Part shown: positions 7,355 through 15,648 of the stretch, in pieces
How positions within the stretch are numbered: position 1 is the stretch's first letter
How the letters are laid out: every line of letters begins with the position of its first letter
Origin: an endosymbiont of Lamellibrachia barhami
GTDB taxonomy: Bacteria; Pseudomonadota; Gammaproteobacteria; Chromatiales; Chromatiaceae
DNA length: 33,059 nucleotides
Reading direction: 5' to 3'
Assembly (NCBI RefSeq): GCF_011947365.2
Contig: NZ_JAAVSH020000001.1
Span: 3,765,103 to 3,798,161 of the forward strand
Program-made: the position numbers and the translations under genes
The notes under the pieces: model-generated
Seen by the model: the letters and a program-made list of their open reading frames with translations, nothing else
Database searches by the model: none
What the model was told of the DNA's origin: nothing

Positions 7355-9193
7355 TCAGGGTTTTGGCGGGCGGTGAATGCCGTGTTTTTGCATGCGTTTT
7401 CGCAGGGTACTGGGAGGGACACCCAAGGCCTTGGCAGCCCCGCCTTCCCCCTCGATCTTCCAGTGGGTCGCTTCGAGCGCCCGGACGATGCAGCACGCTT
7501 CGGACTCGGCGAGGGTCCGGGGACAGGGGGACACCTCGGGTACACCCAGCGTGTCCATCAGGCGAAGACGGGGGCCTTGGGTGTTGATCACCGCCCGTTC
7601 GATCACGTTCTGCAGCTCTCGGACGTTGCCGGGCCAGGGGTAACGTTGCAGGGCCTCCATCGCTCCGGTCGGTACGGTGTTAATGGACTTGCCCGATTTG
7701 CAGGCAAGCTTCTCGACGAAGGCGCCCACCAGCAGGGGGATGTCTTCCCGACGCTCCCTGAGTGGCGGCACGGTGATTGGGAACACCTGCAACCGGTAGT
7801 AGAGATCTTTCCGAAACCGACCGCTGCGAATCTCTTCCTCCAGCTCTCGATTGGTCGCTGCGATGACCCGGACGTTCACCGGGATCGTCCGCGAGCTGCC
7901 CAACCGTTCGAACTCACCGTCCTGGAGCACCCGCAGCAGCTTGCTCTGGAGCTCCAGCGGCAGCTCGCCGATCTCATCCAGAAACAGGGTTCCGCCGTCG
8001 GCCACTTCGAACCGCCCCACCCGTTTGGCTTCGGCCCCGGTAAAAGCGCCTTTTTCGTGGCCAAAGAGCTCACTTTCGATCAGGTTCGCCGGCAAGGCCG
8101 CGCAGTTCACTTTGACCAGGGGCCGGGCGTTACGGGGGCTCCACTGATGAATGGCCCGGGCGACAAGCTCCTTGCCCACACCGGTTTCACCGAGCAACAG
8201 GACGGTCGTGTCGGAGGAGGCGACTTGCTCCGCCCGGAAGAGGACGGACTTGAGGGCGTCACTTTGGCCGATGATCCCATCGACATTGTGCTCTCCCTTG
8301 ACCTCTTCGCGCAGATAGACGTTTTCCACCTGGAGTTGCTGCTGGAGTGTCTGGATCTCCAAAAACGCCTTCTGGAGCGACTCGTCGGTCTGCTTGCGGC
8401 TCAATGCGTTGGAGAAGATCTCCCCGACCAACCGCAGTTGTTGAACCACCCCGTCGGGCCAGGGGCGCTCTGTACGAAGGGAAGCAAAGGCGACCGCTCC
8501 GGTGATGGAACCGGCCACCGCCAGTGGGATCGCCACCACCGACTTTGGGCCGCACTTTCGCAGATACTCCTGGTCACGTCTTGCATCAGCGGGCAGATCA
8601 GAACCTTGCGAAAACAGGAACATTTCGCCGCGGAGCATCTTCTCAGTGGCCCAGGGCAATTGATCAAACACAACCCGTGCCGGGGCTGGCTCACACCCAG
8701 GAGCCGTCCACGAGTGTGTAGCGCAAAAGTGGGTCTTTTCTTCCGAGAACCCGAACAGGGTGCTTCGATCCACCTGTAAAGATTCTGCGATGCATTTCAG
8801 CCCCTGCTCGATCTGCCGGTCTACCTCACCGGGCGGCAGATTCAGGAACCGAGTCGAGAGCTGAGAGAGCAGGGTTTCGAACCGAAGCTGTTCTTCAACT
8901 GCCGCTTCGACGTACTCGAGTTCAGTGAGCTTCCGTCTCAGCCGCTCATTCGACGCCCTCAGCTCGGCCGTACACTCCATCTCCCTGAGTTCTAGCTCTT
9001 CGTTCTGCTGTCGCAGTTCCTCTTCGGCAGCATGCAATTTCTGGTGGGAGGTCAGCAAGGCCTTGAGGGTCTCGGTGGGCATCACTTCACCGTTCACCCG
9101 CCGCCCACTGGGGCCTTGTCGCAGGCTTTCTACCCACTTGTGAAGCACCTTGATGTTGAGGGTTGATGAATCCGTACCCATTGTTTTTCTCAC
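7355..9193 (-). CDS. GAF-domain sigma-54-dependent transcriptional activator
   Basis: A 612-residue enhancer-binding protein of the FhlA/NorR type, which hydrolyses ATP to open promoters held by sigma-54 RNA polymerase. Domains: a Glu/Gln/Arg-rich coiled coil (about 45-105); a GAF sensor domain (about 105-265) with HFCATHSW and SVVAIPLAV; a second short coiled coil (268-300); the AAA+ domain (about 305-535) with Walker A GETGVGKE (335-342), the sigma-54 contact loop GAFTGA (383-388), Walker B GGTLFLDE (400-407) and the [13 protein letters not shown] sensor region; and a Fis-type helix-turn-helix (about 575-608, [17 protein letters not shown]). There is no receiver domain, so it probably senses a small ligand rather than a kinase. 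The start is GTG at 9193 or ATG at 9181; neither has a strong ribosome site. The most likely target is the adjacent downstream gene. Confidence 0.92.
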
Positions 9194-12107: not shown

Positions 12108-12828
12108 TTCTGGTTTTATTCGATCACTTAACCATCCCAGCACGAAGGATCTCATGGTATCACTCTGAGTGATCGGATTCAGTAAATTCACTCATGACCT
12201 TTCTCATCGACTCTCCCTTTAGTTTTAGCTTGTGACTATTGTGTAATAGACGGTCCAGAATGGCATCTGCCAGCGTCGCATCGCCGATGGTTTTATGCCA
12301 TTGTATTGTCGGTAGCTGACTGGTTACCAACGTGGATTTAAGGCCATGGCGATCATCCATGATAGTCAGTAGATCATTACGCTGGTTCAGGTTCATTTTC
12401 TCCAGTCCCCAGTCATCCAGTACCAGCAAATCCGTTTTTGCCAGTTGCTGGGTCAATCGGGTAAAACGACCATCTCCATGGGCGATAGTCAGCGTTTCAA
12501 GCAAGCGGGGCATACGGAAGTAACGAACCGATAATCCCTGCATGCACGCTTGGGTTGCCAGTGCACAACCAAGATAGGTTTTACCGCAACCGGTGGGGCC
12601 GGTGATGAGTATATTGTGATGCTGCAGTATCCAGTGTGTACTCAGTAAATCAGCAAACTGACTTTTCATCAGCCCACGCGGATGACTGTAATCAATATCA
12701 GCCGGGTTAGCCTGCAGTTTTAATTTTGCCACTTTAAGCAGACGTTTGATTTTATTGTTATGGCGATGTGTTGATTCCCGGTCTACCAGTAACGCCAGGC
12801 GTTCACTAAAGCCAAGTTCATCATGCGA
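12085..12828 (-). mobile_element. IS21-family remnant (one end plus truncated istB)
   Basis: The left boundary is where parE2 homology stops. The end contains two direct copies of an ATTCTGG...GATCACT unit (about 12086-12106 and 12107-12128) and a further TGAGTGATCGGATTCAG (about 12159-12175). IS21-family ends characteristically carry several internal repeats. The only gene is istB, cut at its 5' end at about 12828 by a palindrome; istA and the other end are missing. It cannot move on its own. Confidence 0.8.
12160..12828 (-). pseudogene. istB: IstB-like transposition ATPase, 5'-truncated
   Basis: IstB helps the IstA transposase of IS21-type elements and is related to DnaA/DnaC AAA+ ATPases. 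Walker A GPTGCGKTYLGCALA and Walker B TDLLVLDDWGL are intact, as is the C-terminal HNSHKLKLKGESMRK. Reading back from the GTG at 12730-12732, the frame continues without a stop through LGFSERLALLVDRES and KIKRLLKVAKLKL, typical IstB N-terminal sequence, to about 12828 where a palindrome interrupts it. About 30 N-terminal residues and the start codon are therefore lost, leaving some 222 codons. Translation from the internal GTG is possible but would omit the N-terminal domain. Confidence 0.85.
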
Positions 12829-12867: not shown

Positions 12868-12890
12868 ACAAAAACCGCTGATGAAATATT

Positions 12891-12951
12891 AGGGGACGCA
12901 TCCTGTTTTCCGTGCCACTTCTGGTACTTCGAAAAACGTGGTGCGTCCCCT
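12891..12951. repeat. REP-like palindrome, GTGGTGCGTCCCCT family
   Basis: The left arm 12891-12910 (AGGGGACGCATCCTGTTTTC) faces 12931-12951, the complement apart from a short mismatch block. A T-rich stretch follows, so it could also stop transcription. It is the sister of the near-perfect element at 15666-15720. Confidence 0.8.
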
Positions 12952-12983
12952 ATTGTTTTTTTGTTTTTTTCGTCAATTTTTCC

Positions 12984-13000
12984 TGTCGGAAAATCTTACA
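12984..13000 (+). promoter_or_regulatory. Upstream motif copy 1, TGTCGGAAAATCTTACA
   Basis: This 17-mer recurs at 13095-13111 with two differences. Both lie upstream of the PEP-CTERM gene and its sigma-54 promoter. From memory, similar TGTCGG...TTACA elements precede PEP-CTERM genes in other bacteria and are thought to bind the PrsR activator; I cannot verify that here. Confidence 0.6.
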
Positions 13001-13094
13001 CTTAGACTGCGGCACTGTGATGAATTAACTCATTGAATTAATAGATAATAATGTGGATTATCCCGGTTTTGGTTCCATATAAGCACGTTTATTG

Positions 13095-13111
13095 TGTCGG
13101 AATATTTTACA
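13095..13111 (+). promoter_or_regulatory. Upstream motif copy 2, TGTCGGAATATTTTACA
   Basis: This is the second copy of the motif at 12984-13000, 111 bases downstream of the first. It sits 64 bases upstream of the -24 element, a usual distance for a sigma-54 enhancer site. The conserved ends are TGTCGGAA and TTACA. Confidence 0.6.
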
Positions 13112-13174
13112 AATTGTTTTTGTGAACTGATTCCTTGATGGATAAGAAATTGATTCTTAAAAGGATTTTTCTTC

Positions 13175-13190
13175 TGGCGTGATATATGCC
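13175..13190 (+). promoter_or_regulatory. Sigma-54 (-24/-12) promoter for the PEP-CTERM gene
   Basis: TGGCGTGATATATGCC has the -24 GG and -12 GC at the required ten-base spacing and keeps TGGC and TGC. The start of transcription would be near 13201, giving a leader of about 135 bases. It is weaker than the promoter at 7179-7194 but supported by the two upstream motifs. Confidence 0.5.
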
Positions 13191-13334
13191 TTATAAATAA
13201 CATGGACTTTGCGATTGGATTGAATAAGGTCTGGTATCAATTGATTTCCAGGTTCTGCAATATTGATTAGTGGCGTCTGACCACAATCAACTCTACTGGA
13301 ACCACTGGATCTTTTTCCTCTATACGAGAAGGGG

Positions 13335-14231
13335 GTGAACGTGAAGAAGATACTGCTAAGTTGGGTTGGTTTGGCTCTGCTGGCGAACGTTCCGATTGCG
13401 CTGGCAGGCACCTGGAGTTGTGATTTCAGCGTAGACACTTGTGACTTCACCATGTTTGTGGATGATCCGGATCCCTCTACCAGCCTTGTCAACAATGGCC
13501 AGCTGATCATGCACACCAATGGGCAGGTATACGCGGAAGAGCCACCGAGTCCACCTACCAATTATGCGACGGCTGCAGAGGCCTATATGCATCAACTCTT
13601 TACTCCCGGGTATGGAGAATCCTGGTGGGCGGAAATTACCGGGATGATTCCTGCGATTATCGAGCCCAATTATCCGGTGGGTCCTATGGGCATTGATCAT
13701 TTGCATCTACAGGTGGGGTTGGCTGCAGGATTTGTTAAACCAGATGGATCTATTTACCTGATGGACAACGGCCTCATATTTTCTGGTGATGACAGGTCCG
13801 GATTAGAGGTCAAGAACCGGAAGTACGATGCCGACAGTAAGTTTCATCCGGTTTCAGGTGACTCTGTGGAATATGCAGATGCGCATACGTTGACAATGGA
13901 TGAGAGTGGTCTGCTCGGCTTGCGTTTCGATGCAGCTACCAAGGTACTGACAGCATACAATGGTCACACCAACGACTTCCTCAGTGTGGATATTGACGCA
14001 TCGGGTCCTGGAAATTGGAATATGACGGACTCCGATGATTTTTTCATTGCGCTCCTACTTGAGGTTCGGGGCTTGCCGGTTCCCGAAACGTCGCCGCTGG
14101 CGCTCGATAACTTTCATGCTTCGTCCGGCGTGTCCGTACCGGAGCCCACAACCTGGGTCATGATGCTTTACGGATTGGGTTTGGTGAGCGTGCTTCGACT
14201 CCGTGGCCACAACCATATATGGAGGGTTTAA
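13335..14231 (+). CDS. PEP-CTERM-anchored exoprotein
   Basis: A 298-residue exported protein with sorting signals at both ends. Residues 1-24 are a Sec signal peptide cleaved near ALAG. The C-terminus reads VPEPTTWVMMLYGLGLVSVL and then RLRGH, the PEP motif, membrane helix and basic tail recognised by exosortases, which cleave and release such proteins, often into an exopolysaccharide matrix. The mature middle has four cysteines near its start (SCDFSVDTCDF) and a beta-rich, Asp/Gly-rich body; its fold looks lectin- or jelly-roll-like but I do not recognise a named family. The start is GTG at 13335 or, better spaced from AAGGGGG, GTG at 13341. No exosortase gene is in the window. Regulation through sigma-54 is likely given 13175-13190. 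Confidence 0.85.
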   Translation: MNVKKILLSWVGLALLANVPIALAGTWSCDFSVDTCDFTMFVDDPDPSTSLVNNGQLIMHTNGQVYAEEPPSPPTNYATAAEAYMHQLFTPGYGESWWAEITGMIPAIIEPNYPVGPMGIDHLHLQVGLAAGFVKPDGSIYLMDNGLIFSGDDRSGLEVKNRKYDADSKFHPVSGDSVEYADAHTLTMDESGLLGLRFDAATKVLTAYNGHTNDFLSVDIDASGPGNWNMTDSDDFFIALLLEVRGLPVPETSPLALDNFHASSGVSVPEPTTWVMMLYGLGLVSVLRLRGHNHIWRV

Positions 14232-14377: not shown

Positions 14378-15034
14378 GTGTTTTTGTTTGGAAACTATTC
14401 AGTACGAATAATTTCTGCTGTTGTCATATTATTTTTACTGTGCGGTTGTGCGACAGTTAAATTTACTGACTATCAGCAAGATACTATTAGCAATTTAAAC
14501 AATCAGCAGTTTAAAGATGGTTTAAGCATTTCTATCCTTGCCATTACTGACAAAAATAAAGTTATCAGTTATTTTGGTACTGATTTACTTTCTTCAGGAA
14601 TTCTGCCTGTCTTAATTGTTGCTGAGAATAAAAATGAATCCTCCAGCTTCATCATTCATAAAGAGCGAATTACTTTATCGAATATTGTTGAAAATGATAT
14701 TGAAGCCATCGATCAAGTTAGAGAATATTCAGCAGGTGAGGAAGTCGCGACCGTTGGCGCGGCGGCAGGAATTATGCCAATTGTCCTTCCTTTGTTTTTT
14801 GTTGGGGCTGCAATGGTTAATGATGCCAACGAAATCATGCACAATATGCTGGAAAAGGAAATAAGAACGGAAATGCTATCCCCAAGTGAAAAAATAAGTG
14901 GCTTTGTATATTTCTCTATTCCAAAAGAAAAGAATGAGCAAAAACAGCAGTATATCATTATAGACGTTATTAAATATCAGCTCACTGAGTCAGAGAGATT
15001 TATTTTTCCTATTAAGTGGAGGAATAACCAATGA
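14378..15034 (+). CDS. Predicted lipoprotein, function unknown (first of a pair)
   Basis: A 218-residue protein starting at GTG 14378, five bases after a strong AAGGAGA site. The N-terminus is a lipoprotein signal: VRIISAVVILFLL followed by the lipobox LCGC, with the lipidated cysteine at about residue 24. The mature part begins ATVKFTDYQQD. Residues 124-145 (ATVGAAAGIMPIVLPLFFVGA) form a Gly/Ala-rich hydrophobic stretch that could insert in or lie on a membrane. The rest is Lys/Glu/Ile-rich. The AT-rich composition contrasts with neighbouring genes and suggests transfer. The stop overlaps the next start by four bases, so the two products are probably made together. I do not recognise a named family. 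Confidence 0.78.
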   Translation: MFLFGNYSVRIISAVVILFLLCGCATVKFTDYQQDTISNLNNQQFKDGLSISILAITDKNKVISYFGTDLLSSGILPVLIVAENKNESSSFIIHKERITLSNIVENDIEAIDQVREYSAGEEVATVGAAAGIMPIVLPLFFVGAAMVNDANEIMHNMLEKEIRTEMLSPSEKISGFVYFSIPKEKNEQKQQYIIIDVIKYQLTESERFIFPIKWRNNQ

Positions 15035-15648
15035 CCAATAACAATAGGATGAGTAAGCATTTTTATATTATAGTTTTAATTATAATAGGGATAACATTAA
15101 GTAGCTGCCATGGTGTGCTAAAGTTTCCTGAACATCGGGTTATATTCCCTAATAAAGAAAAAATTGATTTAAATGTTCGCCTCCACATAGGCAAAGATAT
15201 TGCAGATGCGATATGGGAAAGTGACACCTTTAATGAAAAAGTCATTGTACTGGGTGAATCCCTCAGTTCTGGTGTGGAAGGTGTGTCACGCGCGGTGTTC
15301 TCTAATGTTGAAGTTGCTAAAGGAAAGGACGAAAAGTATCGAGGAGGCAGTGAAGCTATTTTAGCTCCTTCATTAAAATACTTAAAAAAATCTATACCTG
15401 TTCTTGGTTTTCAAGATACTCATACCACCATTGTGATGGAATGGTTGCTGAAGGATAGCTTGGGAAATATTATTTGGGCGGATAGCTTTTCAGTTCATAA
15501 AAAATTCCAGATGATGTCATCTCATAAAAAAACAAAAATATATATCCGAGAATTATTGGATGAGCTATTTGAGAAGACATTCGAATCTTTGTCGGAATCT
15601 CCCGAAATACGGACATATGCTGCTTTACAGAACAGGGGGCGGAAATAG
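15031..15648 (+). CDS. Predicted lipoprotein, function unknown (second of a pair)
   Basis: A 205-residue protein whose ATG overlaps the previous stop (ATGA, 15031-15034), with GGAGG eight bases upstream. The signal is FYIIVLIIIGITLSSC, with the lipobox LSSC and the lipidated cysteine at about residue 26. The mature part has a beta-rich N-terminal half (VNLNVRLHIGKD-like, VIVLGESLSSGVEG) and a central VMEWLLKDSLGNIIWADSF, the type of edge strands seen in envelope-assembly lipoproteins; this resemblance is loose. It is AT-rich like its partner and the operon ends just before a REP-like palindrome at 15666. Overlap and shared composition suggest that the two lipoproteins act as a pair in the envelope. 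Confidence 0.78.
   Translation: MTNNNRMSKHFYIIVLIIIGITLSSCHGVLKFPEHRVIFPNKEKIDLNVRLHIGKDIADAIWESDTFNEKVIVLGESLSSGVEGVSRAVFSNVEVAKGKDEKYRGGSEAILAPSLKYLKKSIPVLGFQDTHTTIVMEWLLKDSLGNIIWADSFSVHKKFQMMSSHKKTKIYIRELLDELFEKTFESLSESPEIRTYAALQNRGRK

Follow-up and report, generated by a model that had tools for sequence, protein, structure and literature searches.

A probable PrsR-controlled, sigma-54-dependent promoter with a doubled upstream site before a PEP-CTERM gene of a Lamellibrachia barhami endosymbiont

Promoters in which a 17-nucleotide (nt) motif 1, ending in TTTACA and "sometimes repeated", is followed by a sigma-54 motif 2 were described for PEP-CTERM genes in a section of Haft et al. 2006 (PMC1569441), which gives a mean spacer of 62.8 nt (standard deviation 10.6, range 32-92), places motif 2 at 23-221 nt before the start codon, and reports the site upstream of 99 of 167 PEP-CTERM genes. 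The present analysis concerns a promoter of this kind in a 33,059-nt stretch of the genome of an endosymbiont of Lamellibrachia barhami (contig NZ_JAAVSH020000001.1, positions 3,765,103 to 3,798,161; the whole stretch is called the window), where two copies of an activator site and a sigma-54 element precede a PEP-CTERM protein gene. Compared with that section, the window has the same motif 1 (here TTACA, matched to the text description), a 63-nt spacer, a sigma-54 element and a PEP-CTERM gene downstream, and PrsK, PrsR, PrsT, an exosortase and sigma-54 are encoded in the genome. An earlier note, made from the letters of the window alone, had pointed to similar elements before PEP-CTERM genes, and that precedent is the motif 1 and motif 2 pair of Haft et al. 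The layout as such, described in 2006, is thus no novelty: the window adds a member with a doubled site to an established promoter class. There is good reason to read this promoter as PrsR-controlled and sigma-54-dependent, with PrsR acting from sites on the same helical face through a short loop bent by integration host factor (IHF).

The window promoter and the recurrence of its sites

TGTCGG-N6-TTACA has exactly two exact matches in the window, at 12984-13000 and 13095-13111, with starts 111 nt apart, and a sigma-54 element with the GG-N10-GC form at 13175-13190 precedes the gene; exact matching thus confirmed the two motif copies, the 111-nt spacing and the correct -24/-12 spacing reported in the earlier note. 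A simple sigma-54 consensus form was used for scoring. The sigma-54 element lies about 150 nt before the GTG at 13341, which, read by eye, suits the Shine-Dalgarno sequence better than the GTG at 13335, and transcription would start near 13201, giving a leader of about 140 nt. The encoded protein carries a C-terminal PF07589 domain (23.4 bits, cut-off 20.7) and falls just below the PEPxxWA-CTERM cut-off (33 against 35).

The window's genome comprises 4.17 Mb in 19 contigs and contains 28 exact sites, 11 on the forward and 17 on the reverse strand; the motif read backwards, which served as control, occurs once, and a chance origin of the motif is thereby rejected. At up to two mismatches the count within the window is unremarkable (9 against 6.4 expected, a value reached by 20 of 100 shuffles), and the strength of the signal is its exactness, position and recurrence rather than this relaxed count. 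A matrix built from the genome's own sites found 49 sites above 11 bits in the window and 17 fetched stretches, against 2-6 in four shuffles, an enrichment that is partly circular because the stretches were picked for sites or PEP-CTERM genes. Grouping at above 13 bits gave 25 site groups, of which 20 hold at least two sites; the four groups that peak below 18 bits (17.9, 15.7, 14.7 and 13.1), all single-site, were set aside, and 20 of the remaining 21 groups have two or more.

A correctly oriented upstream site was present for 11 of the 17 PF07589 PEP-CTERM genes, one of these genes being frameshifted, a share like that reported by Haft et al. and in line with the prediction of the earlier note. 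A PEP-CTERM gene follows 13 of the 21 groups by our reading, if one frameshifted gene, one truncated and one decayed are included; the other eight precede genes for an outer-membrane beta-barrel protein, a HisKA_3 kinase and an SdrD B-like surface protein, a PKD-domain gene and its near copy, and a peptidoglycan-binding/HdeA-like gene, with two lacking an identified gene. The coincidence of sites with sigma-54 elements that the earlier note had proposed to look for was seen in 18 of the 21 groups, with candidate elements at gaps of 42, 63-65, 73, 75, 84, 96 and 97 nt, and of 153 nt in three related groups; for group 386516 the match at 63 was chosen over a slightly higher-scoring one at 174. 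The 153-nt trio (C1:3299298, 3304431 and 3309043; L066) are two-site promoters that also carry, some 57 nt beyond the proximal site, a degenerate word resembling TGTCGG, as well as a GACA...TGTC palindrome.

Two other candidates were rejected. A site at 3278940 that seemed to lack a gene has a decayed PEP-CTERM remnant downstream. Convergent sites at C1:2164035/2164175 (+) and 2165332/2165475 (-) were considered as an antisense or small-RNA promoter; at the same place in the genus mate G138, two convergent PEP-CTERM genes form 706-nt, 100% identical inverted repeats (L332:846-3025), each with its own, differing two-site promoter, and in the window's genome (L062:4036-5492, equal to C1:2164035-2165491) one of the two is truncated and its partner is broken in the 5' part. 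The locus is therefore taken as a decayed or mis-assembled duplicate, and gene conversion or inversion may act at this convergent pair.

The regulator cluster

One protein exceeds the PrsR cut-off (TIGR02915; C1:3395690-3397018, about 735.6-735.9 bits against 502.6), and it is encoded in the run prsK, prsR, exosortase, prsT, XrtA-associated tyrosine kinase and TIGR03016 protein. PrsK (837.6 bits), PrsT (612.6) and the exosortase (TIGR02602, 144.7) are each above their own cut-off; the XrtA profile TIGR03109 gave 187.2 against 208 bits, and therefore an exosortase is assigned and the XrtA subtype is not claimed. With a single rpoN (502.6 bits), all the genes that the earlier note had proposed to search for, namely prsK/prsR, an exosortase and sigma-54, are present. 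No site above 13 bits with the genome's own matrix was found in 19.9 kb around the prs cluster.

Sites and regulator were compared across 146 genomes of the family, 70 with PrsR above the cut-off and 76 below it. The mean site count was 3.74 in the former and 0.58 in the latter (P 1.6e-7; P 3.7e-6 when the window's genus was left out), against 0.84 and 0.61 for the reversed pattern (P 0.17), and four or more sites occurred in 17/70 and 2/76 genomes, respectively; the median in the PrsR-positive genomes was only 1. The association supports control by a PrsR-type activator, as the earlier note had suggested, with PrsR as the predicted ligand of motif 1.

A different sigma-54 activator, encoded about 4 kb upstream of the gene (7355-9193), might control it in place of PrsR. 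It is close by and has GAF, AAA+ and Fis-type helix-turn-helix domains, and NifA-type activators use TGT-N10-ACA sites, which resemble the TGT-N11-ACA frame of the window sites. However, the site is found at 20 further locations in the genome and tracks PrsR across the family, and the neighbouring protein is not PrsR, since its 329.3 bits with TIGR02915 are far under the cut-off, which makes its control of the promoter very improbable.

Helical spacing, bend element and doubled site

A first scan of genome contigs for motif 1 followed at 50-80 nt by TGGC-N8-TGC gave at least 119 stretches, of which 80 became loci; judged by their titles these are mostly from Pseudomonadota, alongside Geobacter-type, Nitrospira and other records in smaller number. 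The gaps in these loci (among the matches listed, as for all counts on the 80 loci and on the 217 rows below) were 50-53 in 16, 61-65 in 43, 66-72 in two and 73-80 in 19, with none at 54-60. A second sample comprised 398 genomes of the phylum, 25 of which matched, and 56 genomes already known to hold such promoters, the latter scanned at gaps of 20-49, 50-79 and 80-110 nt. This second sample as a whole gave 217 distinct rows from 68 genomes, excluding that of the window. A single genome contributes as many as 13 rows, sites with two partner matches are counted twice, the set overlaps the first one by as many as 50 of the 80 loci, and a few rows look like chance matches within coding sequence. 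Motif 1 was forward in 179 cases and reversed in 4, which proves little because the loci were selected by the forward pattern.

The 217 gaps form peaks at 42.2 (6 rows), 52.0 (32), 63.4 (112), 74.7 (27), 85.4 (26) and 97.1 (14), with a best period of 11.2 nt (R 0.73, jitter maximum 0.24); when each of the 68 genomes supplies a single row, the median R is 0.69 against 0.42. Within 2.5 nt of a rung lie 202 of the 217 rows, the rungs being drawn from the same data. Fourteen gaps of the window's genome, which is outside the pooled set (paired groups, duplicates dropped), give R 0.87 at period 11.2, and most gaps in the genus mates fit the ladder (42, 62-65, 73-75, 84, 97), with weak sigma-54 elements at 126 (twice) and 132 off it. 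The distance from site to -24 thus varies in steps of about 11 nt, that is, by whole helical turns, and the 63 nt between the end of the proximal site (13111) and the TGG at 13175 fall on a rung. At two loci (L201 and L202, in G428 and G386) motif 1 directly precedes an ATG whose reading frame begins MIRLFKHYVPNAV and resembles the start of an EpsB-type sugar transferase; the sigma-54 match there is inside coding sequence.

The ladder also bears on the possibility of two tandem promoters, with the distal copy serving a second GG-N10-GC match 69 nt after it at 13070-13085. This match is weak, 69 nt falls between rungs and none of the 217 rows has that gap; it is probably not a promoter, and a tandem arrangement is scarcely credible.

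The IHF consensus is WATCAANNNNTTR. For E. coli it is given as WATCARXXXXTTR in a passage of PMC7962754, a paper whose passages on the subject name a PEP/exosortase substrate only in an expression table. Spacers between site and -24 were searched for YAANNNNTTGATW at up to one mismatch, which was found in 26 of the 80 first-set spacers (shuffle mean 3.4, maximum 9), 14 of 31 phylum spacers (1.9, maximum 7) and 42 of 99 later-fetched promoters (5.3, maximum 13), the last two sets sharing a few promoters. The distance from the end of the match to TGG is 18-20 nt for 33 of 43 matches in the first two sets and for 27 of 44 in the third, where another 10 of the 44 end at 29-31. The opposite orientation was weakly enriched in the first sets (8/80 against 3.4, 6/31 against 2.0) and clearly in the third (27/99 against 5.2), by which an element of one orientation only is rejected; it lies 5-7 nt before TGG mostly with gaps of 50-53, and 17-19 nt before it with gaps of 84-98. 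One orientation or the other occurs in 61 of the 99 promoters. A PEP-CTERM-like tail lies within 1.5 kb in 74 of these 99, and in 32 of 80 by a narrower test.

Columns anchored at TGG and read without any consensus show, in 84 promoters with gaps of 60-66, AA at -31/-30 and a stretch resembling TTGATT between -25 and -18; gaps of 73-77 (27 promoters) agree, those of 50-53 (33) agree more weakly, and with gaps of 84-98 (30) the AA is shifted upstream by about one turn. The phased positions and the column conservation together indicate that the bend element is fixed to the promoter and turn-spaced, and that the PrsR site moves by helical steps. In the window the element at 13143-13155, a feature absent from the earlier note, ends 19 nt before TGG, the position favoured in other genomes, and is probably an IHF site, as judged from its sequence.

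Instead of IHF, the spacer element might bind a different bending protein, such as HU or an IHF homologue, or act as an AT-rich upstream element for polymerase. The spacers are AT-rich, and IHF-alpha was not recognised among the PF00216 proteins of the 19-contig assembly, where one of the other two such proteins is nearest HU-beta (134.7 bits, below the cut-off of 157) and one is weak. Against this, the consensus-free columns spell AA-N4-TTGATT, the element occurs in both orientations at fixed, turn-spaced positions, and IHF-beta is encoded (148.1 bits, cut-off 119.95), so that a function other than IHF binding has a clearly smaller share of the probability. A divergent HU/IHF-family protein at L322 (C1:1926192-1926482) scores 33 bits with HU-alpha and 32.5 with IHF-alpha, far below the cut-offs.

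Two copies of the site occur in 51 of 59 groups in three genomes of the genus (20/21 in that of the window, 14/19 and 17/19 in the others, where the best site had to reach 20 bits and its partner to exceed 15). Outside the genus a second upstream site was found in 18 of 175 promoters (9/77 at above 13 bits and 9/98 at above 14 bits, the latter against 0.06 in shuffles), by a matrix derived from the sites of the window's genome, which diverged copies elsewhere may escape. The paired arrangement, put forward in the earlier note as a search key, serves as such mainly within the genus, being rare elsewhere. Arrays of three motif-1 copies, spaced at about 99-112 nt, lie upstream of sigma-54 elements in the Rhodospirillales metagenome-assembled genome OFTM194 (L107, L142).

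At the period of 11.2 fixed from the ladder the spacing between copies is phased, both in the own genome (n=17, P 0.007) and in other genomes (n=27, P 0.0002), and at 10.5 the combined data show little phasing (R 0.21). With a free period the deduplicated own spacings are not significantly phased (n=17, P 0.20, the best period of 8.0 lying at the limit of the range scanned), the full 20 give P 0.05, and own and other genomes together give 11.2 (n=34, P 0.002); from the distal site to -24 no significant phasing was found with a free period (n=14, P 0.29). The free-period copy tests omit spacings of 59 and 314 nt, which the fixed-period test includes; the deduplicated set excludes three paralogous spacings (469, 3304, 3309), and the fresh set one G132 spacing that had already been counted. 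Copy-to-copy phasing at about 11.2 nt is weaker than the site-to-promoter ladder. One site might be sufficient and the second copy a functionless, redundant or decaying duplicate, which would suit its rarity outside the genus and the non-significant free-period test on deduplicated spacings. The retention of two copies in most genus groups speaks against it, as do the phasing at 11.2 and an orthologous copy spacing that is 302 nt in two genomes and 259 in the third, a difference of 43 nt or about four turns, and this explanation is considered unlikely.

Table 1 Features of the window considered in the analysis
Feature	Position	Strand	Detail
Neighbouring sigma-54 activator gene	7355..9193	-	GAF, AAA+, Fis-type HTH; rival regulator considered
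Distal activator site (motif 1) TGTCGGAAAATCTTACA	12984..13000	+	exact match; 24.5 bits, genome's own matrix
Weak second sigma-54-like match	13070..13085	+	GG-N10-GC, 69 nt after distal site, between ladder rungs
Proximal activator site (motif 1) TGTCGGAATATTTTACA	13095..13111	+	exact match; 28.5 bits, genome's own matrix
Probable IHF site	13143..13155	-	TAAGAAATTGATT on + strand, WATCAANNNNTTR on - strand; 0 mismatches
Sigma-54 -24/-12 element TGGCGTGATATATGCC	13175..13190	+	GG-N10-GC; 13.5 in simple consensus score
PEP-CTERM protein gene	13341..14231	+	GTG start, stop included; ORF (open reading frame) 13335-14231; PF07589 above cut-off

Upstream of the promoter the window contains a fragment of an IS21 helper ATPase (IstB) gene at 12160-12732 and, as read by eye, a palindromic repeat GGGGACGCA...TGCGTCCCC at about 12890-12956, which ends about 30 nt before the distal site. 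The two open reading frames 3' of the PEP-CTERM gene (14378-15034 and 15031-15648) had no match in Pfam or NCBIfam, and blastn of the window promoter against 34 loci from two genus mates gave no orthologue, only a 33-nt match.

Proposed mechanism and comparison with known systems

In the proposed mechanism PrsK would sense a signal and activate PrsR, dimers of which would bind the two TGTCGG-N6-TTACA sites, while IHF or a similar bending protein would occupy 13143-13155 and bend the DNA. The AAA+ ring of PrsR, held on a fixed helical face, could then reach and remodel the sigma-54 polymerase at 13175-13190, and the promoter would open; the distal copy, on roughly the same face, probably aids PrsR assembly.

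Several observations weigh against this reading. Six of the 17 PEP-CTERM genes have no site directly upstream (two of the six follow a third on the same strand), groups 304760, 573649 and 2772329 have no acceptable sigma-54 element (3/21), and the three related groups have one only at 153 nt. An IHF consensus at up to one mismatch lies 18-20 nt before -24 in 4 of the 21 groups of the window's genome, to which the failure to recognise IHF-alpha is added, and several PrsR-positive genomes of the family have zero exact sites. According to passages of PMC9850573, a plasmid with prsK or prsK-prsR did not restore an epsB2 mutant of Aquincola.

Beyond the window, the balance of evidence leans slightly towards one rigid geometry for PrsR promoters across much of Pseudomonadota, with a turn-spaced IHF bend, PrsR sites on one face and evolutionary steps of about 11 nt, to which the genus would have added a standard second site on the same face, forming a two-site, probably cooperative, enhancer of a surface-protein regulon. 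Ladder and bend element turn a sequence pattern into a mechanical model that predicts functional sites, and they provide a more specific search rule for PEP-CTERM regulons. The ladder is also a natural record, over many genomes, of the face-of-the-helix constraint in sigma-54 activation.

The section of Haft et al. 2006 on these promoters mentions neither quantised spacing nor an IHF site, although its spacer standard deviation of 10.6 is close to one helical turn, and doubling, occasional there, is usual in the genus of the window. Among the matches listed, in titles and the starts of abstracts and with subscription literature mostly outside the scope, no report of a ladder or an IHF site in PrsR promoters was found. 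The nearest experiment is a DAP-chip (DNA affinity purification-chip) study of a Desulfovibrio vulgaris PrsR homologue, described in a passage of PMC3333781; the DVUA0057 regulon has sigma-54 promoters, as here, in another lineage, the comparison being by description (PMC3333781, PMC4641369). In Aquincola tertiaricarbonis, passages of PMC9850573 describe pepA as RpoN1-dependent, with a mapped start and -24/-12 element and a predicted enhancer upstream, and name PEP-CTERM genes as important for the formation of flocs in activated sludge; pepA is alike in being a PEP-CTERM gene with an RpoN1-dependent promoter and a predicted upstream enhancer. Assistance by IHF is established at sigma-54 promoters (passage of PMC7057263), and two-site activation by NtrC at nifLA depends on the helical face (as cited in PMC7408454). 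As far as these passages describe them, the NifA and NtrC promoters (nifH, nifLA) share with the window promoter an activator site, an IHF-assisted loop, which is predicted for the window, and a sigma-54 promoter; they are single promoters with other activators, for which the arrangement was shown experimentally, whereas here a natural spacing ladder is seen across many genomes.
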